From positions 1 to 50,740 of IMG/VR virus record IMGVR_UViG_3300030419_000468: a stretch of 50,740 nucleotides of DNA; one strand, given 5' to 3'. Each line of letters starts with the position of its first letter. Position 1 is the first letter of the stretch. The translations under genes were made by a program, and so were the position numbers. Below, in pieces: positions 26,654 to 43,671 of the stretch. The notes beneath the pieces are model-generated. The model worked only from the letters and a program-made list of their open reading frames with translations, was not told the origin of the DNA and searched no databases. The DNA comes from a virus.

Positions 26654-27436
26654 TTATCTTTGAGAGTGACCAGGCCTACTATGTACGCCTAGAAATGTTG
26701 CTGACTCTCCTTTTGCCTTTTCTTCTGATGTTAATTCTTCAATAATATCTTCCCAGATATTTTCATCAAATACAACCCATCCTAATGTTATTCTTGGACC
26801 ACCATATGCAGCATGCCACATAATTTTATTATGTTCTTCCTTCTTACCATAGTATCCAAGTTTGCAATGCCATCCAGGAACGTCATCTATATGTACTAAT
26901 TTCATATCTGGATTTGCTCTTATTGAACCTGGCTTTTCTCCACTGCTGTCAAGGTGACGCCAATAACCTTCACCTGTTGGGTTCCATGTAAACAAACAAT
27001 TAAATCCTGGAACATTCCAATTAGTATGCCAAGCAATATATCCGTCTTTAGGATAATACATCTTTAATGCACAAAATTTATATCCAATATATGAACCTAA
27101 TGTATCATCTAACTCAATAGACTTTTCAAGATATTTTTGAATCCATTCTTTTTCATTAGCACTAAATCTATCTCCTTCTTCTTGTAAAGTCTTTCTTAAA
27201 GTAGGTTCATTTAGATCATAACCATAACTATCAGGTGGGTATCCATCATGTGTTTCTGCTGGACTACTCTTTAAGCATTCTACTGATGCTGCGTATTCTG
27301 ATCTATTCTCATTATAAAATTTGCCCTTTGTTCTCCAATTAGGTAAATTTACGTCAGGTGGATTTTGTGATACCCAATCACTATACTTATTTAAAACGGT
27401 CAAAAGATCCGTAGGTAGTGTCAAAACCTGTCTCAT
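26654..27436 (-). CDS. Putative Fe(II)/2OG oxygenase-like protein
   Basis: A 260-residue protein whose second half fits a double-stranded beta helix: DGYIAWHTNWNVPGFNCLF with H137-x-N139, GEGYWRHLDSSGE, then IMWHAAYGGPRITLGWVVF with H208 and R215. That gives an HxN...H...R arrangement where HxD...H...R is usual. A role in hydroxylating a protein or glycan is inferred. The N-terminal 120 residues are Trp/Asn-rich and not recognised. It overlaps the glycosyltransferase gene by 50 bases, so the two are coupled, and the operon includes the giant fibre upstream. Confidence 0.6.
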   Translation of the reverse strand: MRQVLTLPTDLLTVLNKYSDWVSQNPPDVNLPNWRTKGKFYNENRSEYAASVECLKSSPAETHDGYPPDSYGYDLNEPTLRKTLQEEGDRFSANEKEWIQKYLEKSIELDDTLGSYIGYKFCALKMYYPKDGYIAWHTNWNVPGFNCLFTWNPTGEGYWRHLDSSGEKPGSIRANPDMKLVHIDDVPGWHCKLGYYGKKEEHNKIMWHAAYGGPRITLGWVVFDENIWEDIIEELTSEEKAKGESATFLGVHSRPGHSQR

Positions 27437-28229
27437 CTATAATATAAGCCTCCCGCTTGTGTGTTTGTTCTGGATCAATAGTATAATGCAAAAATGCTTT
27501 AGTTGTTCCAGGACGTAGTTCAGTCTCTTTATACCCAGTGACAAAATTATATTTTGCATCATTAGGCATCCTTCCAATCTTAACATCCATATCTGGATTT
27601 TCATACAATGCTCTCCAAAAAGCAAATGTATCCCAGTATGTTAATCCTTTCGGGAAAGGACTGGTATTCTTTTCAACAGTGTGTTTCTTATACCAATACA
27701 ACCACTGTTCCCATAACTTCTGTGTTCTCTCATTCTTTCTCCAAACGAACATTCCACAATGCCATCTGAATTTATGAGCTTTACCTTGTCTATATAACTC
27801 AATATGATCTTTATTATAATGTTCAAGTTCTTCAGCTGGTATACCAGGTCCTACTTGGTCATCATGTGTGAAGTAAACAACCTTAGCATTATAAGGTCTA
27901 TTCTCTGACATGACAACATCATTATCACCTAAAAGATCAAATACTTCTTCTATCTCATCACTTAAAACAAAACCATCAACATCAAGATAACAAGTGACAT
28001 CAAATGGTGTTCTTTCTAATGCCCATAGTTTTGTTCTAACATGAACCGGTACTGGTGTGATAAGATGATCAAATAATTTTCTATCTTCATCTGTCACCCA
28101 CTCTTCGTGTGTGAACACTGCTACTTTAGCATCTGGTACTTCATCCTTTAAAGACTCAACGCACATAACAAGAGCGTCGTAGAAAGGTTTAGATACAGTA
28201 GCTACTAAAAGATAACCTCTACTCTCCAT
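27387..28229 (-). CDS. Glycosyltransferase, GT-A fold (GT8-like)
   Basis: A 280-residue protein opening YLLVATVSKPFYDALVMCVESLKD, a nucleotide-sugar-binding strand and helix, followed by TKLWALERTPFDVTCYLDVDGFVL with the metal-binding DVD at 83-85, as in GT8 and related families. A later RWHCGMFVWRKN block and an FLHYT near the C-terminus are typical acceptor/metal residues. It should move a sugar from a nucleotide sugar to a protein or glycan in the cytoplasm. It lies between the 177-residue gene and the oxygenase and overlaps both. Direct proximity to giant Tyr/Lys-rich fibres suggests these as acceptors (inference). Confidence 0.82.
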   Translation of the reverse strand: MESRGYLLVATVSKPFYDALVMCVESLKDEVPDAKVAVFTHEEWVTDEDRKLFDHLITPVPVHVRTKLWALERTPFDVTCYLDVDGFVLSDEIEEVFDLLGDNDVVMSENRPYNAKVVYFTHDDQVGPGIPAEELEHYNKDHIELYRQGKAHKFRWHCGMFVWRKNERTQKLWEQWLYWYKKHTVEKNTSPFPKGLTYWDTFAFWRALYENPDMDVKIGRMPNDAKYNFVTGYKETELRPGTTKAFLHYTIDPEQTHKREAYIIDETGFDTTYGSFDRFK

Positions 28230-28752
28230 CCTTCTCAGCTTCCTTAATAATTATAGCTATTCCAAAAGCCTGAGCTTCTTCTGGTGAGGTTGCCGATCTA
28301 AGTTTTCTTTTTAATGTTTTGAATTCTGTTCCTTTAACTTGAGGCAAGTCTAAAAATGTAGATTTAATATTCCATAATGCAGCTCTTCTATCTTCTCTTT
28401 CTCGTATGGTCTTTTCTTCTTCAGCAGCTTTACCTAATTCTCTTTGTATTTGAACCTGACGTGCAGTGTTATGTCTAATCTCATCTTCACTAAATTGTTT
28501 TCTAATATCTCTATACAGTGGATGTTTGTCGTCTGTTGGAATATTCTTTTCTTGCGTGGCCATTCCATCTGGTCTTAATAATACACAAGCCATCTCTGTT
28601 CTACTATTGTTAGTGTAATGTGGATTGGTTATCATTGGTAAAGTTGGATCCAATGAAAAGTTAGGAATGGGGAGTTGTTTTAACTCACTTTGTTTTGGTG
28701 TTTCAACTGTGACTCCTTCTGGAATCTTAGCAGTCTTCGTTTCTTCTGTCAT
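28219..28752 (-). CDS. Hypothetical protein between giant fibre and glycosyltransferase
   Basis: A 177-residue charged protein. The first 45 residues are Pro/Thr/Lys-rich and disordered-looking (PKQSELKQLPIPNFSLDPTLP), then a helical, Glu/Arg-rich segment (ARQVQIQRELGKAAEEEKTIREREDRRAALW), ending with KLRSATSPEEAQAFGIAIIIKEAEKDGE. Not recognised. It has its own combined sigma70 and late promoter, so it may be made early as well as late, unlike the fibre before it. Confidence 0.7.
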   Translation of the reverse strand: MTEETKTAKIPEGVTVETPKQSELKQLPIPNFSLDPTLPMITNPHYTNNSRTEMACVLLRPDGMATQEKNIPTDDKHPLYRDIRKQFSEDEIRHNTARQVQIQRELGKAAEEEKTIREREDRRAALWNIKSTFLDLPQVKGTEFKTLKRKLRSATSPEEAQAFGIAIIIKEAEKDGE

Positions 28753-28807: not shown

Positions 28808-31800
28808 TTAAGCTGTTCTAATCCATAATTTTAATGTGCTGATTGTCTCTACTGCTGATTGTACAGTTGATCCAGTCCATGTTTTACTATATGCAGCACC
28901 TAACCAGTTAGATTGATACTGTGCAGTAAATTGACCTTCGTATGCTTTCTCCCACTGTTTTACAAATTGACCAGTGTATTGAGCTTCATAGTTAGTTGTG
29001 AATGTGCCTTCATATACTTTTGTATATGTACTTTCAAATTGTCCAGTATATACACCTTCCCATAACTTCTGATATAGTTTACTATACTGACCAGTATATG
29101 CTTTTTGATATTGCTTTGTCCAGTTTTGTGTAAATGAACCTTCATACTGTTTTTCATATGCTTTAATATATGTTCCAATATATGCTCTATCAAATTGTCC
29201 TTCGTATGCTTTAGTATACTGTCCTAAGTACCAACCTGTATATTGTCCTAAGTATTGACCAGCCCATGCTTTAGTAAATTGTTGTAAGAATGTTCCTTCA
29301 TATTGTCTATTGAATGAACCTTCAAACAGTGCTGAGTATGAAGCAATGTAATCTTTATTATATTGTCCTACATACTGACCAACATATGCTTTAGCAAATT
29401 GTCCTGTAAATTGTCCTTCATACTGGCCAGTGTATTGACCTAGATATGCTTTTTCAAATGCACCTGTAAATTGTCCTTCGTACTGACCAACATACACACC
29501 AGTATATACTCCTTGATAAACATGAGCTCCTTCATACTGACCTAAGTAGGATCTGTCATATACGCCTTCATATGTTTTTGTATATTGTGTGCTAAACTGA
29601 CCTGTATATTGTCCATCATATGTTCCACTAAATGTTCTTGTTCCTTCCCATAATTTAGCATATGCTTTAACATAATTTAAACTTACATATGTTGTTGCAA
29701 ACGCACCTTCAAAACTTCCAGTGTATTGACCAGTATATGTTCTTGTTCCTTCAAACTGACCAGCGTATTGTTTTACATAACTTACTACATATAATTTTTC
29801 AAAGTTGTTTGTGTATTGACCAGTAAATGTTCTTGTTCCTGTATATGCTTTTGTATATTGTTTTGTAAATGCACCTTCATATTGTTTACCATATTGACCA
29901 GTATATGTTCTAGTTCCTTCATATTGTCTAGCATATACGCCTTCCCAGTTTCTAGCAAATGACCCTTCATATAATTTTGCATAATCTTTTACATAGTTCT
30001 TAGTATATGCTCTTATATACTGACCGGTGTATTGAGAAGTAAATACTCCTTCATATACTCCTTCATAAAGTTTAACATAAGTCTTACCATACTGACCTAT
30101 AAACTGTTTGAGATATTGTGTTGTAAATGCTCCTTCATAAGCCTTAGTGTAGTTTGTATCAAACGAACCTTCATATAATGCTAAGTATTGTTTTCCAAAT
30201 TGTCCTTCATATGTTTTAACATATAGTCCAGTGTATGTTTTAGTGTATGATGTCGAGAACACTCCTTCGTATGATTTTTCATAATTGGTTCCATAAGATC
30301 CATCATATGCTTTTTCATAGTTAGTACCAAATTGACCTGAGTAGTCTTTACTATAGTTGGCTGCAAACACTCCTGCGTATGCTCCTTCATATATTGTTCC
30401 AAACACTCCTTCGTATTGTGTATTGAATACACCTTCAAATTGTTTTGCATAGTTAGTTGTGAACACTCCTTCATATTGAGTTACGTAATCTTTAGCATAG
30501 TTAGTTGTATACACTCCTTCGTATGTTCCAACATAATTAGTTCCATATACTCCTGTGTATTGTTCTGTAAAGTCTTTTTGATAGTTTGTAGAGTATACGC
30601 CATCAAAGTTTTTAGCATAGTTAGTACCATACTGAGTCTCATATTGGCTAGTGTAATCTTTTTGATAGTTAGTTGTAAATACACCTTCGTATTGATCTGT
30701 ATAGTTTGTTTCAAATGCTCCTTCAAAAGCTCCTGCATATTGTTGTCCAAACTGACCAGTATATTGTCCTTCGTATTGTTTTAGATATTGCTTAACATAT
30801 TGTTTAGCATATTGTGTTACAAATGAACCGTCAAATGAACCTTCATATACCTTTGCATATAATCCAACATAAACTTTACCATATGTTGTATCAAATGATC
30901 CTTGGAACACTCCACCGTATATATTTGTATATTGGCCAACATATGCTTTCTGATATTGTGTTGTAAACAACCCAGCATAGTCTGTTGTGAATCCGCCCTC
31001 ATATTGAGTTATATAATCTTTAGAATAGTTGTCTGTAAACTGCCCTGTAAACTGTCTGTCGTAATTGCCCTCATATTGTTTAGCATATTGTGTGACATAG
31101 TCCTTAGCATAGTTGTCTGTAAATGAACCTTCGTATGTTTTAGTCCATTGATTAATATAAAGTTTAGCATAGTTAGTTGTATATGTTCCTTCGAACACTC
31201 CACCATATACATTTGTGTATTGACCAACATAGTTCTTAGCATATTGTGTAGCAAATGAACCTTCGTATTGTGAGGTGTATGCTCCTTCCCATGCTTTGGC
31301 ATAAGTTGAGGAATATTCTTTTTGGTATTGATCTGTAAACTGTCCTACATATGTTCCAGTAAATTGTCCTTCCCATTGGCCAGTGTATTGTCTTTCCCAA
31401 TTCTTAGTATAGTTTGTAGTAAATAATCCTACATAATTCTCTGTATATGTTCCAGTGTAATCTCTTGCATAGTTGGATGTAAACTGTCCTTCGTATTGTT
31501 TACCATACTGACCAACATAATTCTTTTGATAGTTCTCTGTATACGTTCCTTCAAATACACCACCGTATATGTTAGTATATTGTCCTACGTATGCTTTTGC
31601 ATATTGAGCGGTATAATCTTTAGCATAGTTAGTTGTAAACTGTCCAACATAATTTTTAGAGTACTGGCCAACATATGCTTTCTGGAATACTCTTTGATAA
31701 TCTGTTGTAAATACTCCTGTGTATTGATCTGTAAATGATCCTTCAAATTGTCCAGCATATTGAGTGACATAATCTTTAGCATAATTGGTTGTGTAATCTT

Positions 31801-34800
31801 TAGCATAGTTTCTTGTGTATGTTCCTTCAAATACACCACCGTATATGTTTGTATATTGTCCTACATAGTTCTTAGTATAGTTGGTTGTAAACTGTCCTGT
31901 ATATTGAGTTGTGTATACTCCTGTATATTGGCCTGTATATGCTTTCTGCCAGATCTTAGTATACTGTCCAGTATATCTCTTGGTGTAATTTCCTTCATAT
32001 GCTTTTGTAAATTGATTTGCATATGCTTTTTGGAAGTTAGTTGTATATACTCCAGTGTACTGTGATCCATATACTCCTTCATATGCTTTTGTATATTGAG
32101 TAGTATATTGTCCTGTATATTGACTTTCATATGTACCATCATACTGTCTAGTAAAGTTTGTTGTATATCTCTTCGTATAGTTAGTTGTGTATGTTCCACT
32201 AAACTGACTTTCATAAACTCCTTCATATGCTTTTGCATATTGTTTTGTATACTGTCCTGTATAGTTTCCAGTAAACTGTCCTGTATACTGACCACTATAT
32301 GCTTTTGAGTAAGATGTGGCATACTGACCTTCGTAGGCTCTTGTGTATGTTGTAGCATATTGTCCACTGTATGCTCTTGTGTAAGATGTACTATATGACC
32401 CAGTAAACTGTCTTGTATAGGTTGTATTATATGATCCAGTATACTGTCTTGTATAGTTCCTTGCATACTGACCACTATATGTTGTTGAGAAGTATCCTGT
32501 ATATTGTCCTGTATACTGTCTTGAGTAGTTTCCAGTATAACTACCTGTGTATTGAGAGTTATATGTTCCACTATATGTTGTTGAGAAGTATCCTGTAAAC
32601 TGTCCTGTATATTGTACTTGCGCTGAGAAGTATCCTGTATACTGTGCTCCACCTTCTCCACCACCAGCGAACTGTCTTGACCACGTACCACCAGATGAAA
32701 ATTGTTGTGACGGCCCAGGTCCACTAAACTGTCTAAGACCCATATAGGCTTTGTCATTCATTTCAAAGACTCTTGAACCAGTGTATTGAACTGTTGTTGA
32801 TCCAGTGTAGTTTAAACCAGGACCAGTAAACTGATTAGAGTATTGTGTTGTTCTTGTGACTCTGGTATATGATCCAGAATAACCTCTTGTCCATTGTTTA
32901 TTATATGTTCCACTATATTGTCTGGTATAGTTAGTTGAGTATTGAGTTGTTCTTGTGACCCTACTATAGTTTCCAGTATAATGTCTGGTATAGTTAGTTG
33001 AATACTGCCCGCTGTATGCTCTTACAAAATTGTTTGCATATGTTCCGCTGTATGCTCTTGTATAACTTGAATTATATGATCCAGTATACTGTCTTGTATA
33101 GTTTGATGAGTATGAACCAGTATACTGTCTTGTATAGTTTGTTGAGTATGAACCAGTAAACTGTCTTGACCACTGTGTGCTATATGTCCCACTATATTGT
33201 CCTGCATAGTTAGAACTATATTGTCCAGTAAACGCTCTTGTGTATTGACCAGTGTATGCTTTTTGATAATTGGTATCATACTCTTTTGTATAGTTAGTTG
33301 CATACTGTCCTACGTATGCTTTTGTATATTGACCTGCAAATTGTTTAGCATAGTTTGTATCATAAGAACCAACATACTGTTTTGTATATTGTCCTGTAAA
33401 CGCTTTTTGGTATTGTGTTGTGTATACTTTTGCATAAGTTGTATCATATGAACCAGTATATGCTCTATCATAGTTTCCACTATATTGTACATCATAATTT
33501 CTTGTAAATACACCTTCGTAAACACCAGTGTATGCTTTTTCATATACCCCAGTATATTGTTTAGCATAGTTAGTAGCAAAAGATCCTTCCCACACTCTAT
33601 CATATTGACCAATGTATTGGCCAACGTATGCTTTCTGATATTGTTTTACATATTGTTTAGCATATTGTGCTACATAGTTTTTAGCAAACTCGTTTGTATA
33701 TTGGCCAATCCATGCTCTTTGGTATTGTCCTGCATATGCTTTTTGGAATGCTTTTATATAATCAGTTGTGTATATACCCTCATATGTTTTAGCATATGAA
33801 CCTTCATATGTTTTTTGATATTGCGCTACGTAGTTTTTCTCGTACTGTGTTGTAAATGATCCTTCCCATATTCTATCATATTGGCCTACATATTGACCAA
33901 CGTATGCTTTTTCATATTGTCTAGCAAATGTACCTTCGTATGCTTTTGTATATTGTCCGGCATATTGTTTAGCATATTGTTTAGTATAAACACCTACGTA
34001 TGCTTTTTGGTACGAACCTTCATATTGTTTAGCCCATTGTACTAGATAAGTTTTTGTATACTGATCGGCATATTGACCAGCCCATTGTCTAGCATAAGCG
34101 CCTTCCCATTGCTGCGCATATTGTGCTGCCCATTGTACTGTCCATTGTGCTGTGTATGCTCCAACATATGCTTTTTCATATACACCAACATAATCTTTAG
34201 TATATTGAGTAACAAATGAACCTTCCCATACTCTATCATACTGACCAACATATTGTCCAGTATATGCTTTCTCATATTGTTTTACATAATTCTTTTCATA
34301 TTGTTTTTCATACTGACCTATCCATGCTTTCTCATATTGTTTTACATAATTCTTAGCATAGTTGGTTGTATATTGTCCTGTAAATCTTCCTTCGTATTGA
34401 CCCGTCCATTGTTGTTGATATTGTGCTACATAATTTTTAGCATATTGACCAACATATAATTTTTGATATGCGCCCTCATATTGTTTTGCATAGTTCGAAG
34501 TAAATGATCCTTCCCATATTCTGTCATACTGTCCTACGTATTGACCAACATATACTTTTGTATATCCTGTTCCAAATTGTCCTTCATATTGTTCTGTATA
34601 TTGGCCAACATAACTACCGACGTAGTTTTTAGCATAATTTTCTGTATAGTCTTTAGAATAGTTGGCTGAAAACTCTCCAGCATAAACACCCTCATATTGT
34701 TTTAAGAAATTGCTTTCATACTGACCGACGTATGTTTTTGTCCATACCTTTTCATATTGACCAACATATGCTTTTTGATAATCTTTAGCATAGTTTTTTG

Positions 34801-37324
34801 TAAACTGCGCAGTGTATTGTTTTAAGAATTGTTTTACATATGATCCACCATATGCTTTTAAGAATTGATTTACATAATTCTTTTCATATACACCAGTGTA
34901 TTGTTTTAAGTATGAAACATCATATTGACCAACATACGCTTTCTGATATTGTGCTACATAGTTCTTAGCATACTGTCCTGTGTATGCTTTTAGATATTGT
35001 TTTGTGTATTGGCCAACATATGATTTTTGATACAGACCAGCAAATACTGTTCCCCATTGACTTAAATATATTCCTGTCCATTGATTGATCCAAGTCTTAG
35101 CATATATTCCTGTATACTGTTGTAAGTAGTTTGTCGAGTAAGTTCCAGTAAACTGTTTAAGATATTGAGTAGCATATGCGCCAACATAATCTTTACTATA
35201 TTGTTTTGACCAATCACTTAAATAATTCTTTTGATATGCTCCAGTGTATTGTGCTTCCCAAACTCTTTCATATTGACCGACATATGCTTTTGTCCATTGA
35301 TTTTCGTAAACACCAACATAATCTTTTGCATATGCTTTGATGTAAGCACCTTCAAAATTCTTTTCGTAATTCTTTTCCCACTGACTTGTATATTGTCCTG
35401 TGTATGCTTTTTCGTATACTCCTACAAATAATTTATTATATGATGTTGTATAGTCTTTTGCATATGCACCTGTATATTGACCTACGTAATTTGCTTCTAA
35501 GTAATAGCCAGTAAACTGCTCACTCGCACTATCATATTGTCCTGTAAATGTTCTTGTTCCTTCGTATTGTTTAGTATACTGACCAAGATACGCTCCAGCA
35601 TAGTTGGTTTCATAAGAACCATTATATGTTCTTGTTCCTTCGTATTGTTTAGCCCATTGTTTTAAATAATTTGTAGCAAGATATGCTTTTGAAAATTGAG
35701 CTGTATATTGTCCTGTAAATGTTCTTGTTCCTTCAAATTGTCTTTCGTATTGACCAATATATTGTGCAGTCCAGTTTCCAATATACAGCTTCTGGTATTG
35801 ATCTGCATACTGTCCTGTGTATGTGCGGGAACCACTGTATGTGCCTTCGTATACGCCCGTATACTGCTTTGTATATTGCTCAGTGTACTGACCTGTGTAG
35901 TTACCCGTAAACGCGCCTTCAAACTGTTTTACGCCAGTATAATTCCCAGTGTAGTTCCCTGTAAACGAACCTTCAAATTGTTTACTGAATTGCGCTTGCC
36001 ATTGAGTAGTAAAAGATCCTTCATATTGTTTTGAATATTGACCTGCAAATTGTTTTGCATATTGTGTTACAAACGACCCTTCAAATGTTCCTTCATATGT
36101 TTTGGTATATGCTTTTTCAAAAGCACCTTCATATTGTCCAACATATGATCCTGTATACTGACCAATAAATGCTCCAGTATATTGTGCTGTAAAGTATCCT
36201 GTATAACCACCTTCGTATTGTTTATTGAAAGCACCTTCGTATTGTTTTTCGTATACGCCTGTGTATTGTTCTAACCAACCTTTTGAATATTGAGCAGTCC
36301 ATTGTTTTGTAAACTGGCCAACATATGTTCCCATGTATTGTTTTTCATAGTTAGTTAAGAATGTTCCTTCATACTGCTTAGTATAATTTCCAGTAAAGAC
36401 TCCAGTGAACGCTCCAGTATATTGTTTGTTATAATCTTTTGAGTACTGGCCGATATATGCTTTTTCATATTGTGTAGCAAATGTGCCTTCGTATACTTTT
36501 TGGTATTGCTTAGTGTAAATACCAGACCATTGCTTTTCCCAGTTGGCTGCATAATCACCAACATAGTTTGCTGTATATCCTATATCAGCTAATGTGTTTC
36601 TTTTATCTAATATTGTTCCACCAACTTGTACCCAGGTTTCTCCTGCGCCAGCTGGATTGGTTGCTGCTATTTTATATTGACCTATTCCTGTTGAGGATAT
36701 TTGATTTCTTAATCTTGCTGCTAAAGTTTTTATCTCAGCATCTGTCATTTCTTTAATCGCGCCACCATCAAGTTTAGATGTCCTTACAGTGGATGGTGCA
36801 GAAACACCCGTTGTCTTTCTCCAAAGTGTATATGTTGTGTTGGCTGTTAGGGATGAGTCAACAATTGTGGATCCTGTACTTGTATAAAGGCTATTGTTGG
36901 GGTTGCTTTCTGCAAGTATGTAAGATCCTAGACCATTTGAAGTTAGATTCGCAAGTGCTCTTGAAATAAGAACAGTGTTTAGATTATTACTATGCTCTGA
37001 TGCATAGCCACTGTCGTTGAGGAACAACGGATACACTAAAGATGTTTCTGCGACCGAACTGAGATTTTGTTTAAGCGTGTAGTTAGTTGAGGTTATTGCA
37101 TTTGTTGTGGGGTGTGTTCCAATACTCTCTGTTCTGATAGTATCGGTAAAGGTGCCCATTGATGTACCATCACCATTAATGTTGATTGTACCTGAGCCAG
37201 TAGTGCTTGTAGAAAACTCAGTTAGAATTTGATGGACGGCGTAATCCATCTCGGTAGTTTGCATCTCTTGCAATCCGAGAAAAGTACCGCCTCCGGTTGT
37301 TTTTATTCTAAGTGGGTTCCCCAT
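28808..37324 (-). CDS. Giant aromatic-tetrad repeat virion protein (2838 residues)
   Basis: The largest gene in the window. Residues 1-249 are a non-repeat head (MGNPLRIKTTGGGTFLGLQEMQTTEMDYAV...), of the type I recall at the N-terminus of virion structural proteins in marine T4-like phages. From Y250 to W2816 the chain is almost unbroken four-residue repeats with an aromatic residue (Tyr, Phe or Trp) at position 1 and mostly Gly or Lys at position 3, for example QYTGQYTKQYEGTF. A Ser/Arg- and Gly-rich centre lies near residues 1480-1560, and two irregular zones (462-613, 2468-2603) carry GTRT insertions. The final 22 residues are non-repeat. It is probably a long tail or side fibre. A late promoter lies 51 bases upstream, inside the preceding gene. 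Function is not shown. Confidence 0.85.
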   Translation of the reverse strand: MGNPLRIKTTGGGTFLGLQEMQTTEMDYAVHQILTEFSTSTTGSGTININGDGTSMGTFTDTIRTESIGTHPTTNAITSTNYTLKQNLSSVAETSLVYPLFLNDSGYASEHSNNLNTVLISRALANLTSNGLGSYILAESNPNNSLYTSTGSTIVDSSLTANTTYTLWRKTTGVSAPSTVRTSKLDGGAIKEMTDAEIKTLAARLRNQISSTGIGQYKIAATNPAGAGETWVQVGGTILDKRNTLADIGYTANYVGDYAANWEKQWSGIYTKQYQKVYEGTFATQYEKAYIGQYSKDYNKQYTGAFTGVFTGNYTKQYEGTFLTNYEKQYMGTYVGQFTKQWTAQYSKGWLEQYTGVYEKQYEGAFNKQYEGGYTGYFTAQYTGAFIGQYTGSYVGQYEGAFEKAYTKTYEGTFEGSFVTQYAKQFAGQYSKQYEGSFTTQWQAQFSKQFEGSFTGNYTGNYTGVKQFEGAFTGNYTGQYTEQYTKQYTGVYEGTYSGSRTYTGQYADQYQKLYIGNWTAQYIGQYERQFEGTRTFTGQYTAQFSKAYLATNYLKQWAKQYEGTRTYNGSYETNYAGAYLGQYTKQYEGTRTFTGQYDSASEQFTGYYLEANYVGQYTGAYAKDYTTSYNKLFVGVYEKAYTGQYTSQWEKNYEKNFEGAYIKAYAKDYVGVYENQWTKAYVGQYERVWEAQYTGAYQKNYLSDWSKQYSKDYVGAYATQYLKQFTGTYSTNYLQQYTGIYAKTWINQWTGIYLSQWGTVFAGLYQKSYVGQYTKQYLKAYTGQYAKNYVAQYQKAYVGQYDVSYLKQYTGVYEKNYVNQFLKAYGGSYVKQFLKQYTAQFTKNYAKDYQKAYVGQYEKVWTKTYVGQYESNFLKQYEGVYAGEFSANYSKDYTENYAKNYVGSYVGQYTEQYEGQFGTGYTKVYVGQYVGQYDRIWEGSFTSNYAKQYEGAYQKLYVGQYAKNYVAQYQQQWTGQYEGRFTGQYTTNYAKNYVKQYEKAWIGQYEKQYEKNYVKQYEKAYTGQYVGQYDRVWEGSFVTQYTKDYVGVYEKAYVGAYTAQWTVQWAAQYAQQWEGAYARQWAGQYADQYTKTYLVQWAKQYEGSYQKAYVGVYTKQYAKQYAGQYTKAYEGTFARQYEKAYVGQYVGQYDRIWEGSFTTQYEKNYVAQYQKTYEGSYAKTYEGIYTTDYIKAFQKAYAGQYQRAWIGQYTNEFAKNYVAQYAKQYVKQYQKAYVGQYIGQYDRVWEGSFATNYAKQYTGVYEKAYTGVYEGVFTRNYDVQYSGNYDRAYTGSYDTTYAKVYTTQYQKAFTGQYTKQYVGSYDTNYAKQFAGQYTKAYVGQYATNYTKEYDTNYQKAYTGQYTRAFTGQYSSNYAGQYSGTYSTQWSRQFTGSYSTNYTRQYTGSYSSNYTRQYTGSYNSSYTRAYSGTYANNFVRAYSGQYSTNYTRHYTGNYSRVTRTTQYSTNYTRQYSGTYNKQWTRGYSGSYTRVTRTTQYSNQFTGPGLNYTGSTTVQYTGSRVFEMNDKAYMGLRQFSGPGPSQQFSSGGTWSRQFAGGGEGGAQYTGYFSAQVQYTGQFTGYFSTTYSGTYNSQYTGSYTGNYSRQYTGQYTGYFSTTYSGQYARNYTRQYTGSYNTTYTRQFTGSYSTSYTRAYSGQYATTYTRAYEGQYATSYSKAYSGQYTGQFTGNYTGQYTKQYAKAYEGVYESQFSGTYTTNYTKRYTTNFTRQYDGTYESQYTGQYTTQYTKAYEGVYGSQYTGVYTTNFQKAYANQFTKAYEGNYTKRYTGQYTKIWQKAYTGQYTGVYTTQYTGQFTTNYTKNYVGQYTNIYGGVFEGTYTRNYAKDYTTNYAKDYVTQYAGQFEGSFTDQYTGVFTTDYQRVFQKAYVGQYSKNYVGQFTTNYAKDYTAQYAKAYVGQYTNIYGGVFEGTYTENYQKNYVGQYGKQYEGQFTSNYARDYTGTYTENYVGLFTTNYTKNWERQYTGQWEGQFTGTYVGQFTDQYQKEYSSTYAKAWEGAYTSQYEGSFATQYAKNYVGQYTNVYGGVFEGTYTTNYAKLYINQWTKTYEGSFTDNYAKDYVTQYAKQYEGNYDRQFTGQFTDNYSKDYITQYEGGFTTDYAGLFTTQYQKAYVGQYTNIYGGVFQGSFDTTYGKVYVGLYAKVYEGSFDGSFVTQYAKQYVKQYLKQYEGQYTGQFGQQYAGAFEGAFETNYTDQYEGVFTTNYQKDYTSQYETQYGTNYAKNFDGVYSTNYQKDFTEQYTGVYGTNYVGTYEGVYTTNYAKDYVTQYEGVFTTNYAKQFEGVFNTQYEGVFGTIYEGAYAGVFAANYSKDYSGQFGTNYEKAYDGSYGTNYEKSYEGVFSTSYTKTYTGLYVKTYEGQFGKQYLALYEGSFDTNYTKAYEGAFTTQYLKQFIGQYGKTYVKLYEGVYEGVFTSQYTGQYIRAYTKNYVKDYAKLYEGSFARNWEGVYARQYEGTRTYTGQYGKQYEGAFTKQYTKAYTGTRTFTGQYTNNFEKLYVVSYVKQYAGQFEGTRTYTGQYTGSFEGAFATTYVSLNYVKAYAKLWEGTRTFSGTYDGQYTGQFSTQYTKTYEGVYDRSYLGQYEGAHVYQGVYTGVYVGQYEGQFTGAFEKAYLGQYTGQYEGQFTGQFAKAYVGQYVGQYNKDYIASYSALFEGSFNRQYEGTFLQQFTKAWAGQYLGQYTGWYLGQYTKAYEGQFDRAYIGTYIKAYEKQYEGSFTQNWTKQYQKAYTGQYSKLYQKLWEGVYTGQFESTYTKVYEGTFTTNYEAQYTGQFVKQWEKAYEGQFTAQYQSNWLGAAYSKTWTGSTVQSAVETISTLKLWIRTA
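29516..29923 (-). repeat. GTRT irregular zone, C-terminal arm
   Basis: Residues 2468-2603 of the giant protein. Four [ET]GTRT[FY] steps, a five-residue YVSLN step and EGAHVY break the tetrad period, matching the style of the N-terminal zone. Confidence 0.8.
30905..31867 (-). repeat. Four TN[IV]YGGVF boxes in the C-terminal arm
   Basis: Boxes of the form YVGQYTN[IV]YGGVF end at F codons starting at 30905, 31193, 31553 and 31829 (residues 2140, 2044, 1924, 1832). In protein order the gaps are 23, 30 and 24 tetrads, the reverse of the other set. Confidence 0.85.
32640..32880 (-). other. Gly/Pro-rich centre of the giant protein
   Basis: Encodes the only long non-tetrad stretch in the repeat domain: TGPGLNYTGSTT, FEMNDKAYMGLRQF, SGPGPSQQFSSGG and AGGGEGGAQ. 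The mirror centre of the repeat landmarks (32703.5) falls between two Gln codons of GPGPSQQ. Confidence 0.8.
33578..34540 (-). repeat. Four DR[IV]WEGSF boxes in the N-terminal arm
   Basis: Boxes of the form Y[VI]GQYDR[IV]WEGSF end at F codons starting at 33578, 33854, 34214 and 34502 (residues 1249, 1157, 1037, 941). In protein order the gaps are 24, 30 and 23 tetrads. Confidence 0.85.
35486..35941 (-). repeat. GTRT irregular zone, N-terminal arm
   Basis: Residues 462-613 of the giant protein. The tetrad period is broken by VKQ, SGSRTY, three EGTRT[FY] six-residue steps, a five-residue YLATN step, DSASEQ and a YLEAN step. Confidence 0.8.
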
Positions 37325-37330
37325 TAATCA

Positions 37331-40189
37331 CTAAGCCTTTAATTTAAACGCGCTATCCCCAAACACGCTACCAGTATTTATAAAACTTACTCTGCTTGCA
37401 TCATAACCTTTTATGGCCGATCCAGGCAAGCCTCCGTCTCCTGATATTGCGTATTGAGAATAGTGTGTTCCAGGATTAGCAACATTCTGACCTGAATCGC
37501 TATCATCATTGTAGCCTCCAGCGCCTGCTCCTAACTGACCTAGTCTCCCACCATTTCCTCCGTGTATGCCTAATGCAGTTGTTGCATTAGATCCGTTTCT
37601 ATCTGAACTACTTTCGGATACGAAAGCAGTATTATTCCATCCAGCGCCAACACCGCCAGCGCCACCTCTACCAATATTTCCAGCGACAGGGTATCCACCA
37701 CCACCGCCTCCACCGCCACCACCGGCGATTTTACCATAGTTTTCAACATAAAGTTCAACACCTGTTCCTAACTGAATTGCATCCCCACCATTACCACCAG
37801 TCTGATTAGTTGAGAATGTATCTGTATTACCTGATGAAGCTCCAGCTGAACCAGACATACCTATAATGTTGCCATCTGGCTTAACTAATATTCTAACTCT
37901 ATGTGGAACGGTTCCATATATTGGACTGAATCCTTCTAATGAAAGAGCTGCTGTTGTATTAGCTGAATATACATATCCACCACTAATTGTTATATTAACC
38001 ATCTGAGGTCTAGTACCTCTACTCTTTCCTAATCCATCTAATACTGATGCTAAATTATAATTAGCTGTATTACTTGTTATTGAAATATCTGTTCTTTCAT
38101 AACTAACGTGTGTTGTTTTCCATTGACCGTCTTCTTTAACTGATACTCTACCAACATCTCTCCAAGCATCATTTTCTTTGACTTTCATTTCTTTAACTTG
38201 TTTCCAAGCTCCAGCTTCTTTAAGTTTTGCTACTCCACCTTCGTCTGTTAGTTCTCCAGTCTTAGTATTTGCTGCTGTTGTTGTTGTAACATAGCTTGTG
38301 TGGAATTGTTCACCACCTGCGTAGTTAGAAGTGTAATGAGCTGTTCCTGTAAACGAACCACTTACTCCTTGATACACACCACCGTAAATTTTATGCCATG
38401 CTCCTTCATATTGTTTGTCATAGTTGCCAAGATATAATTTTGAATATTGTGTACCAAACTGTCCTTCATAAACACCTGTGTACTCTTTAGTATATTGTTT
38501 TGTAAATGCTCCTTCATACTGTCCTAGATACACTTTTGTATATTGGCCAGTATATTGTTTTACATACTGTCTGGTAAATGTTCCTTCATAAATTTTACTA
38601 AAGTCTGAACTATACTGTCCTGTGTATTGACCTACCCATGCTTTTGTATATTGTCCAACGTATGCTTTTTCATATGCTTTTGCATACTGTGCACCAAACG
38701 TTCCTTCAAACTGTTGATTGAATACTCCTTCGTATGTTGCACCATCAAAAGTTCCAGTAAATGAATGAGGTACTAAGCCACTAAACTGACCAGTACCGTC
38801 TGTACTAGTTCCATATGTTGCAAGGCCTAGATATTGTCCTGCCCACGACTTCGTATATTGTCCTGACCATACTTTTGCAAATATTTTATTATAATTTTTC
38901 TCATATGCTTTTTCATATTGTTTAGTATAATGTGCTATGTAATATAATATACCACTGTATTGTCTTTGGTAATTCTTTGCAAAATTTCTAGTATATTGTT
39001 CTGCATAGTTAGTAGTCCATGTACCCTCGTAGGTTGTAGCCCATTGGTGCGTACTAGTAGTTTCTGAATATGATGCATAATTTTTAGCGAACGGTCTTGA
39101 ATAGACACCTGTCCAAGTTGGAACCCATTGTCCAACAAATACTCCTGTATAGACTGAACCGCCCTCAGGACCTCCAGAGCCAGATTCATAAACACCAGTG
39201 TAGTCTTTTAGATATCCTCCTGATGGCCCTTCAAAGTATCCTTCATACGGAACACCGCCGGTATATTGTCCCATGAAAGTTTCCGGCTCACCTGGAAATA
39301 ATTCTCCATGATAGTTTCCAGTGTATTGGTTGGAACCAGATACATATACGCCTACAAAGTCTGCAACTGCTTCAAATGTTCCTTCAAAATTTCCAGTGTA
39401 ATCTCTTGCATAATTTCCGGTCCATTGTTTTAAATATGCTTTTTCAAATTGTCTTACATACTGACCTACGTAGCTTTTCTGATATTGTCTAGTATAATTC
39501 TTTTGATATTGTCTAACATAATTTTTAGTATAGTTGGCAGCTAGTTCACTATATGTGCTATATACTTTTTCATATTGTTTAGTGTAGTATCCTATAAATG
39601 TTCCTTCGTATTGAGCTGCGAAATCTCCTTGATACTGTCTATCATATGTTCCTTCCCACTGTCTATTATAGGGACCACCATCAAATTGTCCTTCAAATTG
39701 TCTTACGTAAGCACCTTCATATGTTCCAACATATTGACCTGTAAATGAACCAGTGTATTGTCCTGTCCATGTCTTTGCGTATTGTTTTATATACTGAGTA
39801 GCAAAAGACCCTTCATATGTTGCTCCAAAATATCCTTCGAATACTCCTTCAAAAGTTCCTGTGTAAGTTTTAGTATATTGTCCTACATATGCTTTTTCAT
39901 ATTGTCCAGCAAATACTCCTTCATATTGAGTAGCAAAAGATCCTTCAAATTGTGATGAATATTGTTTAGCGTATTGTGTGGTAAACACTCCTGTATATTG
40001 ACCAGTATATTGTTTACCATATTGCTTGACATAGTTGCCAAGATATGTTGCTGTATATTGTGCTAGATAAGTTTTAGTGTATGCACCTAGATAATGATGA
40101 ATAGGAGTATCTGTTATGGCACCCTCGTACGAGGAGGCAAACTGTCTGTCTGCTCCTGCGTATGCTCTTGCGTAATTTATCTCTGCCAC
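37331..40189 (-). CDS. Aromatic-tetrad fibre with Gly-rich adhesin-like C-terminus (952 residues)
   Basis: Starts at a GTG (40189) after GGAG. Residues 6-633 are the same aromatic tetrads as in the giant protein, with a Gly/Pro-rich break at about 285-346 near the repeat midpoint. Residues 640-700 carry a KxxxxAWKxV / VKEDGQWKT motif found in phage tail proteins. The C-terminus has long glycine runs (AGGGGGGGGGGY near 800, then GNIGRGGAGGVGAGW and GIHGGNGGRLGQLGAGAGGY) recalling the polyglycine receptor-binding domain of gp38-type adhesins. It is probably a tail-fibre or adhesin protein. It ends six bases before the giant gene. Confidence 0.8.
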   Translation of the reverse strand: MAEINYARAYAGADRQFASSYEGAITDTPIHHYLGAYTKTYLAQYTATYLGNYVKQYGKQYTGQYTGVFTTQYAKQYSSQFEGSFATQYEGVFAGQYEKAYVGQYTKTYTGTFEGVFEGYFGATYEGSFATQYIKQYAKTWTGQYTGSFTGQYVGTYEGAYVRQFEGQFDGGPYNRQWEGTYDRQYQGDFAAQYEGTFIGYYTKQYEKVYSTYSELAANYTKNYVRQYQKNYTRQYQKSYVGQYVRQFEKAYLKQWTGNYARDYTGNFEGTFEAVADFVGVYVSGSNQYTGNYHGELFPGEPETFMGQYTGGVPYEGYFEGPSGGYLKDYTGVYESGSGGPEGGSVYTGVFVGQWVPTWTGVYSRPFAKNYASYSETTSTHQWATTYEGTWTTNYAEQYTRNFAKNYQRQYSGILYYIAHYTKQYEKAYEKNYNKIFAKVWSGQYTKSWAGQYLGLATYGTSTDGTGQFSGLVPHSFTGTFDGATYEGVFNQQFEGTFGAQYAKAYEKAYVGQYTKAWVGQYTGQYSSDFSKIYEGTFTRQYVKQYTGQYTKVYLGQYEGAFTKQYTKEYTGVYEGQFGTQYSKLYLGNYDKQYEGAWHKIYGGVYQGVSGSFTGTAHYTSNYAGGEQFHTSYVTTTTAANTKTGELTDEGGVAKLKEAGAWKQVKEMKVKENDAWRDVGRVSVKEDGQWKTTHVSYERTDISITSNTANYNLASVLDGLGKSRGTRPQMVNITISGGYVYSANTTAALSLEGFSPIYGTVPHRVRILVKPDGNIIGMSGSAGASSGNTDTFSTNQTGGNGGDAIQLGTGVELYVENYGKIAGGGGGGGGGGYPVAGNIGRGGAGGVGAGWNNTAFVSESSSDRNGSNATTALGIHGGNGGRLGQLGAGAGGYNDDSDSGQNVANPGTHYSQYAISGDGGLPGSAIKGYDASRVSFINTGSVFGDSAFKLKA
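37375..37382 (-). promoter_or_regulatory. Late promoter for the giant protein, inside the preceding gene
   Basis: TATAAATA on the minus strand, within the last codons of the 952-residue gene (FINTG), 51 bases before the ATG at 37324. Confidence 0.6.
38340..40175 (-). repeat. Aromatic tetrad repeats of the 952-residue protein
   Basis: Roughly 600 residues of [YFW]-x-[GK]-x repeats, with short irregular steps at about residues 169-174, 213-220, 411-421 and 454-477, and a longer Gly/Pro-rich break at 285-346 (about 39152-39337). Confidence 0.85.
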
Positions 40190-40202: not shown

Positions 40203-40538
40203 TTAACTTAGAGTCTGATACCAAATGTCTCCATTATTGCCGACGTCATTGTTCGCTGGTGCAGAACTTGAGATGTGAACTTTTTGATTTGGAATATGTG
40301 CAAATGATCCTGCTCCTGCAGCATTAGTATTTGCATATGTGATTCCTGTTGTGTTTACTGAAGCAACGACTGACTGAGTTAGTCTGCCTTTTTTATCTAC
40401 TGTTATAGTAAACATTTGAGTATTGTTAGCTACAATTGATCCAGCACTATTTGCATATGTATTTGCTAAAGCAGCATCTGTGACTTTAGCTGTACTGTTT
40501 ACTACATCAACGCTACCGTGTGTAATTGTATTAGCCAT
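40203..40538 (-). CDS. Small fibre-associated virion protein
   Basis: A 111-residue protein rich in Asn, Ala, Thr and Val (MANTITHGSVDVVNSTAKVTDAALANTYANSAGS), with FTITVDKKGRLTQSVVASVNTTG, a common phage fibre motif, and ending NDVGNNGDIWYQTLS, typical of short fibre C-termini. It overlaps the end of the S74 fibre by 8 bases. It is likely part of the same fibre or its attachment. Confidence 0.7.
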   Translation of the reverse strand: MANTITHGSVDVVNSTAKVTDAALANTYANSAGSIVANNTQMFTITVDKKGRLTQSVVASVNTTGITYANTNAAGAGSFAHIPNQKVHISSSAPANNDVGNNGDIWYQTLS

Positions 40539-43500
40539 CTACATCTTCCTCAACTTCAGGTTCCTCTACATCAGGTTCCAATTCTTTTACTCGTTCTGTC
40601 AGCTCTTTAACGGCCTCAATTAATAATGGTATCAGGCTATTATAGTTTACTGTTTTATGTCCTCTACTATTTATATCTACAGCATGAGGCAATACATCTT
40701 CGATCTCTTGAGCTATAACTCCGTAGTCTGGTGTTCCTGCTCTCATATCTCCAATGTTATTGTTCCATGTAAATGAATACCCACCTAATGAGTTTACTTT
40801 ATCTAAAGCGGTGTCTATTTTCAATACATTATCTTTTAATTGTTGGTCTGATGAATAGTTAGCTACTAAGTCTTGTTTAGCGTATATGAAATCTGATACG
40901 ACAGCTGTTGTATTTGCAACTGTATCTCCAACAACCACACTTGTATCAAAGTATCCAGATCTAAATGATTTCGCTGCTGAACCCATATCATATGAGTTAG
41001 TAGTCTTAGCTAACAGATGACCATTAGCTGCTGCATTAGCAAAATCTATTGTGACTGTGTTTGCTCCATTACCAATTTGAATAACATTATTACCAGTACC
41101 AGCAGTCGCTGCACCAGTAAGTTTTGTAGTGTTAGTAATTGTTAAGTTAGCAGATCCTAATGTGCTTGCTGTTAAAGTAGTATCATCTGGTAATGTTGCT
41201 GCAACTCCAACTTGTAAGTGATCAACAACTAAATTGTTAGATGTTAATGCAGTTGCGTTAGCACTTATACCAGTATTAGAGAATATAACATTACTTGTAT
41301 TTGCTAATGTAATATCATCACCAACTGATAGATCACCAACAATAGCTCCTGATGCAGCATTTACTTCTCCAGTAATGTCTACATCTCCACCTGCTGTTAT
41401 ATCGCCTGATGTGTTAGCTGAAGTTAAAGCAGCTGCCCATCTTCTTGATGCATGTCCTAATACTTTTCCATTAGCACTTGGTTCAATGCTACTTACTACC
41501 TGTGCTGTGACATTTACTACATCTGCTGCAGCACTACCTATAACTGTATTACCAGAAACTGTTAAGTCAGCACCTACTGTTGCACTTCCAACTATTGCTG
41601 CAGATGCAGCATTTACTTCTCCAGTAATGTCTACATCATCAGCTGCTGTTACGGTATTTGAGAATGTTGCTGCTTTAAGTACTGCCAGTGTTCCATCTGT
41701 ATCAATACCACCTTTTGATATGTGAGTATTAACAGTTGAATTACCAACATGTAAAACTGATGAGTTAGCAATTGTATTACCAACTGCTGCTGTTCCTTTG
41801 ACTAACATATGTGCTGTAGTCATACCTACATTAGCACCAACATTAATAGAGTTAACTAAATCTACTGCACCTGTGATTGCTGCACCATCAGCTGCAATTG
41901 TTAATTTACCGCCCATGTTAGTTGTAGTTCTAACTCTTAATGTTGCTGTGTTAGCTTCTCCAGTGATGTCTATATCTGCACCACCAGTTATGTCTCCTGT
42001 AGATGTAAATGCACCAGATGTGTTTGCTGTTGCAAAAGATGCAACCCATCTGTTTGTAGTATTACCTAATGCAATGGTATTACCATGCAATGGCATTAAT
42101 CCAAATGATGAATTACCTACAACACTTTTTACAACTAATCTGTTATTTGAATCTGCTACACTACCTATTGCAATAGACTTAACATTACTTGATACGTTTG
42201 ATTGTATTGCTTTGTATGAACTGTTTCCTACAATAAAGTTTTTTGCAGAGTTTATTGTGACGTTGCCGTCTAATACTGTGTTTGTTGAAACTGTTAAATC
42301 ATTTCTTACTACTGCATTATATACGTTTGCTTCTTTACTATCAGCAGCATCTATGTCTCCAGATACTGTGACGTTTCCACCTATTGTTGCAGCACCTACT
42401 ATTGCTGCTGTCGCTGCATTTACTTCACCTGTAATATCTACATCAGCTCCTGCTGTAATGTCTCCAGATGTATTTGCAGTTGTTAATGCAGCTGCCCATC
42501 TTCTGTCAGCGTGACCTAATACTTTACCATTTGCTGATGGTTCTATGCTACTTACAATTAATGCTTGTACGTTAGCAATGTCTGAATTGTTTGATCCTAA
42601 AACTGTATTTGCATTTATTGTAAGGTCACCATCAATGTTTGTTGCTGAATTAATATCTAAATTCGTACCATGAATATTCATGTTGGTAGAATCTATTAGT
42701 GTGTTTGTTCCTGACACATTAAAGTCTGTTGATGTAATATCAGTTAGTGCGTTATCAATATCAACATTAGCATTTGCATCAATAATTGTATTGAATATGT
42801 TAGTTGCTGCGTTAGATGTAAATGATGTAGCAGATGAATTAATTACTACTTCGTCTGCACCAATATTAAAATCAGCTGCATCTGAATGTATGTTTACATT
42901 AGCAGTAAATACTGTATTAGCATCTATGTTTGTTTCTGTTCCAGTAATAGCTAAGTTAGTTGATGTGATATCAGTTAATGCATTATCTACATCTAAGTTT
43001 GCATTTGCATCTATCTTAGTATTAAAAATGTTTGTTGTAGCATTTGAGGTAAATGTTACTGCAGTTGCATCTACTTCTACTGCTGTGCTGTTAGCTTTTA
43101 AGACACCATCATTAATGTCTATTGTTGCAGCATCTATGTTAACATTAGATGTGATGTTGAATTCACCAGCTGCAACTACTGTGTTTGTTGCATTAATTGT
43201 TGTTAATGCATTGTCTATATCTACATTTGAATTAAAGTCATTAACTATAGCATTACTCTGGAATTGATTTAATGATGAACTAATTGCTATATTATTTGAT
43301 GTACTATTCTGTGTTGCAGTAAGTTGTCCTACAACGAAGTTATTAATTGTTGAGTTAGATGTCACATATGCATATGAGTTAACAAATACTGAGTTAGTAG
43401 ATATACTTAAATTAGCTGCAGCTGCAACAGTTCCATAAATTGTACTGTTTGCAGATACACCTTTTAATTCGTTCTCTACTAATAATGTGTTTGCACTAAA

Positions 43501-43671
43501 GAAACCATTTACATAAGCATTACCTGTTGTACATGCACCTTGTGAATTTGCAACAGTAGATACGACAACTTTTTCCATGTCGTATGTAATTCTGTTAGTA
43601 AGGTCTAACCACTCTCTAAATGTATCAGATGATGGTACAACGTTGGCGTTTAAATAATTATTACTTGCCAT
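40531..43671 (-). CDS. Tail fibre with C-terminal S74 intramolecular chaperone
   Basis: A 1046-residue fibre. The N-terminus (SDTFREWLDLTNRITYDMEKVVVSTV) resembles attachment domains of marine phage fibres. The shaft is a long beta-rich repeat of Asn/Thr/Ala/Val (DITGEVNAA, IDANAN.DIDNALTDITST). The C-terminus (SDQQLKDNVLKIDTALDKVNSLGGYSFTW, then PDYGVIAQEIEDVLPHAV and VNYNSLIPLLIEAVKEL) is a Peptidase_S74 chaperone, which trimerises the fibre and cuts itself off at Ser-Asp, here S941/D942. It ends in an acidic tail. Internal duplication of a VSSIEPSANGKVLGHA.RRWAAAL block is visible. Confidence 0.9.
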   Translation of the reverse strand: MASNNYLNANVVPSSDTFREWLDLTNRITYDMEKVVVSTVANSQGACTTGNAYVNGFFSANTLLVENELKGVSANSTIYGTVAAAANLSISTNSVFVNSYAYVTSNSTINNFVVGQLTATQNSTSNNIAISSSLNQFQSNAIVNDFNSNVDIDNALTTINATNTVVAAGEFNITSNVNIDAATIDINDGVLKANSTAVEVDATAVTFTSNATTNIFNTKIDANANLDVDNALTDITSTNLAITGTETNIDANTVFTANVNIHSDAADFNIGADEVVINSSATSFTSNAATNIFNTIIDANANVDIDNALTDITSTDFNVSGTNTLIDSTNMNIHGTNLDINSATNIDGDLTINANTVLGSNNSDIANVQALIVSSIEPSANGKVLGHADRRWAAALTTANTSGDITAGADVDITGEVNAATAAIVGAATIGGNVTVSGDIDAADSKEANVYNAVVRNDLTVSTNTVLDGNVTINSAKNFIVGNSSYKAIQSNVSSNVKSIAIGSVADSNNRLVVKSVVGNSSFGLMPLHGNTIALGNTTNRWVASFATANTSGAFTSTGDITGGADIDITGEANTATLRVRTTTNMGGKLTIAADGAAITGAVDLVNSINVGANVGMTTAHMLVKGTAAVGNTIANSSVLHVGNSTVNTHISKGGIDTDGTLAVLKAATFSNTVTAADDVDITGEVNAASAAIVGSATVGADLTVSGNTVIGSAAADVVNVTAQVVSSIEPSANGKVLGHASRRWAAALTSANTSGDITAGGDVDITGEVNAASGAIVGDLSVGDDITLANTSNVIFSNTGISANATALTSNNLVVDHLQVGVAATLPDDTTLTASTLGSANLTITNTTKLTGAATAGTGNNVIQIGNGANTVTIDFANAAANGHLLAKTTNSYDMGSAAKSFRSGYFDTSVVVGDTVANTTAVVSDFIYAKQDLVANYSSDQQLKDNVLKIDTALDKVNSLGGYSFTWNNNIGDMRAGTPDYGVIAQEIEDVLPHAVDINSRGHKTVNYNSLIPLLIEAVKELTERVKELEPDVEEPEVEEDVDG

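Follow-up and report, generated by a model that had tools for sequence, protein, structure and literature searches.

The 50,740-nucleotide stretch analysed here (the window; IMG/VR record IMGVR_UViG_3300030419_000468, positions 1 to 50,740) is a viral contig of 50.7 kb that encodes T4-like portal, terminase and sheath proteins. Its minus strand encodes a 952-residue protein, here called protein A, in which a long array of aromatic tetrads is followed by a glycine-rich end resembling a phage adhesin. The question raised by this locus is what such a repeat builds, and where on the virion it would leave the adhesin to which it is joined.

Protein A, its neighbours and the tetrad family

Protein A is read from a GTG codon, and the strand opposite its open reading frame is full of stops. 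Its residues 1-640 contain 119 aromatic i,i+4 pairs, compared with a mean of 33 and a maximum of 51 in 2000 shuffles, which confirmed the aromatic-tetrad protein described by an earlier, sequence-only reading of this DNA. The tetrads follow the consensus [YFW]-[T/E/A/V]-[G/K/R]-[Q/T/N/V] in runs of 35, 10, 14, 7, 8, 10 and 31, and the array spans about residue 6 or 17 to about 606-609. Its midpoint (~312) falls within an irregular centre of 71 aa with 32% Gly plus Pro (residues 276-346), in agreement with the break that the sequence-only reading had placed at about residue 316. The W-rich motif which it had also described after the tetrads was found as W662, W676 and W690, at a spacing of exactly 14 residues. 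Overlapping open reading frames on either strand inside the repeats were set aside as by-products of repetitive codons. The coordinates are collected in Table 1.

Table 1. Features of protein A, protein B and the adjoining fibre genes in the window.
Feature	Position	Strand	Remark
Long tail fibre	40531..43671	minus	C-terminal Peptidase_S74 chaperone
111-aa protein	40203..40538	minus	ends SSSAPANNDVGNNGDIWYQTLS; proposed trimeric fibre-tip dock for protein A
Protein A, proposed tetrad fold-back domain plus gp38-like adhesin	37331..40189	minus	952 aa, GTG start
A residues 6-275, proposed outward tetrad arm	39365..40174	minus	mirror register with second arm
A residues 276-346, Gly/Pro-rich midpoint	39152..39364	minus	proposed hairpin tip
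A residues 347-609, proposed return tetrad arm	38363..39151	minus
A residues 649-697, three 14-residue Trp/Phe repeats	38099..38245	minus	proposed docking knob
A residues 698-952, gp38-like beta domain, glycine runs	37334..38098	minus	PF05268 at 702-945
Protein B, tetrad protein	28808..37324	minus	2838 aa
B layout			N-domain 1-249; arms 250-1489 and 1572-2810 on either side of the proposed tip (1490-1571); C-terminal cap
B residues 1490-1571, midpoint	32612..32857	minus	proposed hairpin tip

Two anchors led to relatives of protein A, namely the S74 fibre gene, by its conserved start, and a degenerate DNA pattern of the tetrads; a search for related loci with the whole protein A as query gave no match. 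Other viral contigs hold eight full-length copies (946-1240 aa), one copy that breaks off within the glycine region and four fragments of the N-terminal part. As the fusion is an intact open reading frame in eight further distinct contigs, an assembly artefact was ruled out. The GTG start is conserved in nearly all orthologues, with ATG only in L144, and in protein A and its orthologues the start codon lies 9-14 bases downstream of the ~110-aa gene. Neither the tetrads nor the gp38 fusion was found in the examined fibre-block proteins and annotation of phiM12, Cr30 and Mosig, the cultured phages with the nearest baseplate protein. A weak tblastn match to an unannotated ~330-base stretch of Enterococcus phage Riverwalk was set aside as chance.

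The minus-strand order in the window is a 2234-aa DUF4815/VrlC-like protein, the S74 long tail fibre, the 111-aa protein (whose gene shares its first 8 bases with the end of the fibre gene), protein A and protein B; downstream of these come a protein of 177 aa, a possible glycosyltransferase and a protein of 260 aa. The sequence-only reading had treated A and B as a pair that may form one fibre system, and the order of S74 fibre, ~110-aa protein ending GD[IV]WY, A and B indeed recurs in all loci that extend far enough to contain it. Downstream of the tetrad genes of many loci lie a gene of ~150-177 aa, a possible glycosyltransferase and a conserved gene of ~210-260 aa (26654-28752 in the window). 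The same set was observed at L116:8254-10803, at L009:28975-30855 and in L109, L111 and L123, including phage C48C1; the Pfam and PHROG matches of the three genes are weak. These genes may modify tyrosine-rich fibres.

Protein B and a protein of phage C48C1 (Kyanoviridae) belong to a B-type tetrad family whose members measure 325 to 3347 aa. They combine an N-domain of ~250 aa, a pair of tetrad arms and a C-terminal cap in which the last residues read ...LWVRTA, ...YTLYVRTA or variants of these. The arrays consist of two near-equal halves (residues 250-1486 and 1572-2807 in protein B, 164+163 tetrads in L130, 128+126 in L120, 116+115 in L022). Protein A likewise has two arms and is without the B-type N-domain or cap, so that the repeat is common to both proteins and the architecture is not. 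CDS0201 of C48C1 (OQ984149, 3347 aa, 'hypothetical protein') has the same tetrads, N-domain, cap and neighbouring genes as protein B, but it carries globular inserts and no gp38-like end, and is therefore kin of B rather than of A. The tetrads of A and B matched no Pfam or PHROG profile; some small and other members gave only short Gly-zipper or weak chance Pfam matches, and no PHROG match.

Several irregularities of the family were also recorded. The C48C1 protein (L009:18837-28880) has several globular inserts between tetrad runs, and a stretch of ~70 aa (KTRHRSYLYYSTDTSTNQQFF...) is present twice in tandem. In L064:288-6530 a +1 phase slip every seven tetrads produces a 29-residue repeat over much of the array. 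The B-type N-domain (residues 1-250 of L042, L086 and other small members) contains a tandem-looking motif, LxEMSDAEIQ...GIGxYxLxxSAPxGGTW.

A gp38-type adhesin at the C-terminus

The Pfam GP38 profile (PF05268) matched residues 702-945 of protein A with 42.7 bits (cut-off 25), and all eight full-length orthologues passed the cut-off; the same region matched the PHROG 'tail fiber protein; host specificity'. Protein A was modelled whole by AlphaFold with a 14-sequence alignment, giving pLDDT about 52-91 over residues 651-860. In a Foldseek search of this model against the PDB, the single match at E<=0.001 was PP01 gp38 (9v85_A; E 8e-4, probability 1.00, 23% identity); the overall rmsd of 13.3 is large because the model is partly of low confidence. 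The C-terminal module of protein A is thus a gp38-type adhesin by profile and by fold match, as the sequence-only reading had supposed from its glycine runs, and the module itself is of an already known kind. These runs lie between about 797 and 924, with ten glycines in a row near 823-832; over 861-920 the model has pLDDT 31-44, and a polyglycine-II sandwich, which in gp38 comprises about ten glycine motifs, was not resolved there.

PP01 gp38 is built from a beta-helix, a polyglycine sandwich and loops that contact the receptor, and is very similar to S16 gp38 (PMC12892980), whose attachment domain is a helical bundle (PMC6851490). Protein A shares with gp38 of T2/S16/PP01-type phages (PDB 6F45, 9V85) a beta domain with glycine runs by profile, a gene placed directly after a fibre-tip-like gene, and glycine motifs better conserved than the segments between them. 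In contrast, protein A carries a fused tetrad domain of ~640 aa, most likely a hairpin, and its attachment part, the three Trp/Phe repeats at 14-residue spacing, is predicted as three beta hairpins in place of the three helices with apical Trp that gp38 has there.

A further difference concerns variability. Known gp38 adhesins have hypervariable loops that separate conserved glycine motifs, a trait which is no part of the Pfam profile. Hypervariable glycine loops had been expected here, but in this between-species sample of about ten divergent orthologues residues 640-952 are the best conserved part of protein A (42-81% pairwise identity and 313-326 aa in full copies, against 27-52% and 626-921 aa for the tetrad part). 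Glycine columns are the best conserved of all, and the centre of the array varies most in length (55-293 aa). That expectation therefore fails for the orthologues examined.

Mirror register between the two arms

The dependence of arm 1 residues on arm 2 residues was measured in every possible antiparallel register. In protein A alone, the third tetrad position is concordant for Gly/non-Gly in 25 of 30 mirror tetrad pairs, from 35/604 to 151/488 (phi 0.67, Fisher p 7e-4), a value reached by 18 of 5000 permutations over 36 registers, and every other register has p>=0.11. The F/Y palindrome is weak in this protein, so that its signal is that of Gly/non-Gly at position 3. When nine A-family members were pooled, one register stood out (r 0.42, n=207, z 6.0; other offsets z<=2.5), with a peak at the same offset in seven of the nine.

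The signal is stronger in protein B, in which position 3 gives phi 0.64 (n=276) and z 10.6, with 3.6 for the next best of 263 registers. Blocks of 30 pairs from residue 713 to 1429 contain 28, 29, 29, 28, 29 and 27 concordant pairs, and the distal tetrad pairs agree in 170 of 180 cases. In L130, L120, L022 and L095, the best four of 241 registers are the four around the midpoint, and aromatic identity at a shared +4 offset reaches z values of 10.3, 10.3, 7.1 and 7.8, respectively; F/W versus Y matches in 453 of 501 pairs, where 271 were expected. These four proteins have the same pairing rules, with positions 2-2 and 4-4 at sum C-2, 1-1 at C+4 and 1-3 at about C+2. Mirror matches in small relatives are complete (19/19, 18/18, 15/15, 12/12, 12/12 and 10/10).

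A mirror register between the arms therefore exists in protein A, protein B and many relatives. The covariation does not come from kinship, because the arms of one protein are compared with each other, and descent is excluded as its cause because reversing a DNA repeat cannot reverse the protein sequence. The register of the aromatic/Gly face and that of the other face differ by 6 residues, and several tetrad members show a superperiod of 12-13 residues which protein A does not have.

Insertions were observed in both arms of some members. L039, L077 and L119 have two-residue insertions (e.g. TGAKNY, TGTSAY) in both arms, as is expected if the arms pair. Protein B has phase-shifting insertions near both arm bases (residues 462-613 and 2468-2603), roughly mirrored, and its register shifts by one tetrad there.

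The proposed fold-back hairpin, its rivals and its possible place on the virion

The most likely reading of these data is that the tetrad repeat is a fold-back beta hairpin, with its tip in mid-chain and both termini at the base. The 'long doubled shaft' of the sequence-only reading is revised in this sense: the two arms are not two copies of a shaft, and a single hairpin, with one arm leading out and the other leading back in mirror register, is most likely. In the AlphaFold prediction of protein A, the tetrad part was left without a usable model (pLDDT 22-40). A small relative, L042 (392 aa), was modelled with 28 sequences at pLDDT 79.5 and pTM 0.73, with N-domain and cap confident. Its arms are paired antiparallel strands with a residue sum of about 631, compared with 630 from covariation, at an arm pLDDT of only 42-59, and a cap strand at the hairpin base is confident. 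The model found no fold match, the best hits being E 0.097 against the PDB and E 6e-3 (probability 0.09) against BFVD; its confidently modelled B-type N-domain likewise matched no fold.

We infer that the two arms are wound into a ribbon coil of ~12-13 residues per turn with aromatic pairs across the axis, which would explain both the offset between faces and the superperiod. A two-start coil would predict a second even-face register one turn away, for which the signal was not clear. Lys and Arg are frequent on the aromatic face of the tetrads, and this sits uneasily with burial of that face.

The alternative that survives best gives the tetrads a different function: the aromatic surface would itself bind the receptor, as a putative glycan-binding surface, and the gp38-like part would serve chiefly to anchor and cap. 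Among orthologues of protein A, length does vary most in the tetrad region and at its centre, the gp38-like part is the best conserved, and glycosyltransferase-like genes flank the family. The strict mirror conservation of aromatics in relatives, however, fits packing better than free surface binding, and we consider this alternative rather unlikely.

The main structural rival is an antiparallel homodimer in which arm 1 of one chain pairs with arm 2 of another in the same register, and it predicts covariation identical to that of a hairpin. A break at the midpoint would be superfluous in such a dimer, but all members of the A family have an irregular centre (55-293 aa); small relatives have a common compact tip motif such as YTLFYGGSIGGYFTG, and the L042 model joins the cap region (pLDDT 80-96) to the base of the same chain. 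Pairing within one chain, which the model of this relative supports, is thus favoured, and the homodimer appears unlikely.

As far as is known, most phage fibre shafts of solved structure are parallel trimers whose C-terminus forms the receptor-binding end. A parallel homotrimeric tetrad shaft, similar to a triple beta-spiral and with the gp38-like module placed distally, at the C-terminal tip, would conform to this pattern, and gp38 does cap such a trimer (PMC6851490). But a parallel trimer predicts no single sharp mirror register, while the best parallel register of protein B reaches z 3.5 against 10.6 for the antiparallel one; a trimeric protein A would also carry three gp38 modules where one caps gp37, and we regard this arrangement as improbable. 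Least credible, and very improbable in our judgement, is a mirror signal that arises as a side effect of composition or of repetition with a short period: the superperiod of several members does raise side peaks 12 residues off, yet the top peak lies at the array centre, far above the parallel registers (also in L120, 10.3 against 4.7), protein A has the peak without the period, and descent, as argued above, offers no explanation.

Returning to the single-chain hairpin, its nearest formal likeness is to SMC/Rad50-type antiparallel coiled coils, which share equal arms, a mid-chain turn, a mirror register and joined termini. Those proteins are alpha-helical ATPases and are unrelated, whereas the tetrad proteins are predicted to be beta and are presumed virion proteins. 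No relevant paper turned up in a literature search that covered tetrapeptide repeats and tail fibres of fold-back or palindromic design, and the hairpin family and its gp38 fusion are new relative to the searched libraries and papers. It is about evenly balanced whether these proteins constitute a new fibrous class, namely a single-chain virion fibre folded back in mirror register as an antiparallel beta ribbon of ~12-13 residues per turn, with arms of up to more than 1200 residues and a host-contacting tip in mid-chain, of which protein A would be a variant joined to a gp38 adhesin.

How protein A might be attached is suggested by its neighbours. The ~110-aa gene before it is conserved in 13 loci, and its product ends in SAPxxxxxGxxGD[IV]WYQT or a near variant. 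PHM2_035 of Prochlorococcus phage P-HM2, encoded after a fibre gene with the ending GGSDGDIWYKY, is a gp38-like protein with the same three-Trp repeat and then a glycine-rich end; it differs from protein A in its length of 306 aa and in having no tetrad domain before the repeat. On contigs L142 and L143, too, a glycine-rich protein with the Trp motif comes after a GD[IV]WY end. This gene order, recurrent also in unrelated phages, points to the GD[IV]WY end as the likely docking site for the Trp repeat of protein A; a comparison of the 111-aa protein with solved gp37 gave no sequence-level match.

Considering all of the above, we have proposed a plausible model in which protein A is probably the gp38-type adhesin of a T4-like marine myophage, carried on a fold-back hairpin and docked on the tip encoded upstream. 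It would act as a putative receptor-binding tail-fibre adhesin. The first arm (from ~6) would run outward from the base, the chain would turn in the Gly/Pro-rich midpoint, and the second arm (to ~609) would come back in exact mirror register, so that the N-terminus and the C-terminal module would meet at the base and the hairpin tip would be the far end. With both termini at the base, the gp38-like module would lie beside the N-terminus and not at the far end of a shaft. The Trp/Phe repeat may dock protein A on the presumably trimeric C-terminal tip (SAPxxxxxGxxGDIWYQT) of the upstream protein, as gp38 caps gp37, and the hairpin, sitting before this repeat, would spring from the docking point. 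The fibre end would then bear both a glycine-rich adhesin and an aromatic hairpin that projects from it and has a tip of variable length, beside which protein B may form a longer fold-back whisker. The tip of A or of B could touch the host, and candidate receptor contacts of protein A are the glycine loops, the hairpin tip, or both.

A mirror-paired fold-back fibre, if this reading is true, places the tip in mid-chain and can grow or shrink through matched tetrads in the two arms; it also leaves a covariation code at residue level, legible in a single sequence. A DNA pattern of consecutive [YF]xGx tetrads occurs in at least 120 stretches of environmental viral contigs, which makes the family a large one there, but searches of 50,697 annotated phage records, with either the N-domain of B or a small family member as query, found it only in C48C1. 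A large part of the machinery with which these marine myophages contact their hosts has therefore stayed unnamed, and the gp38 fusion offers a handle on their receptor binding.
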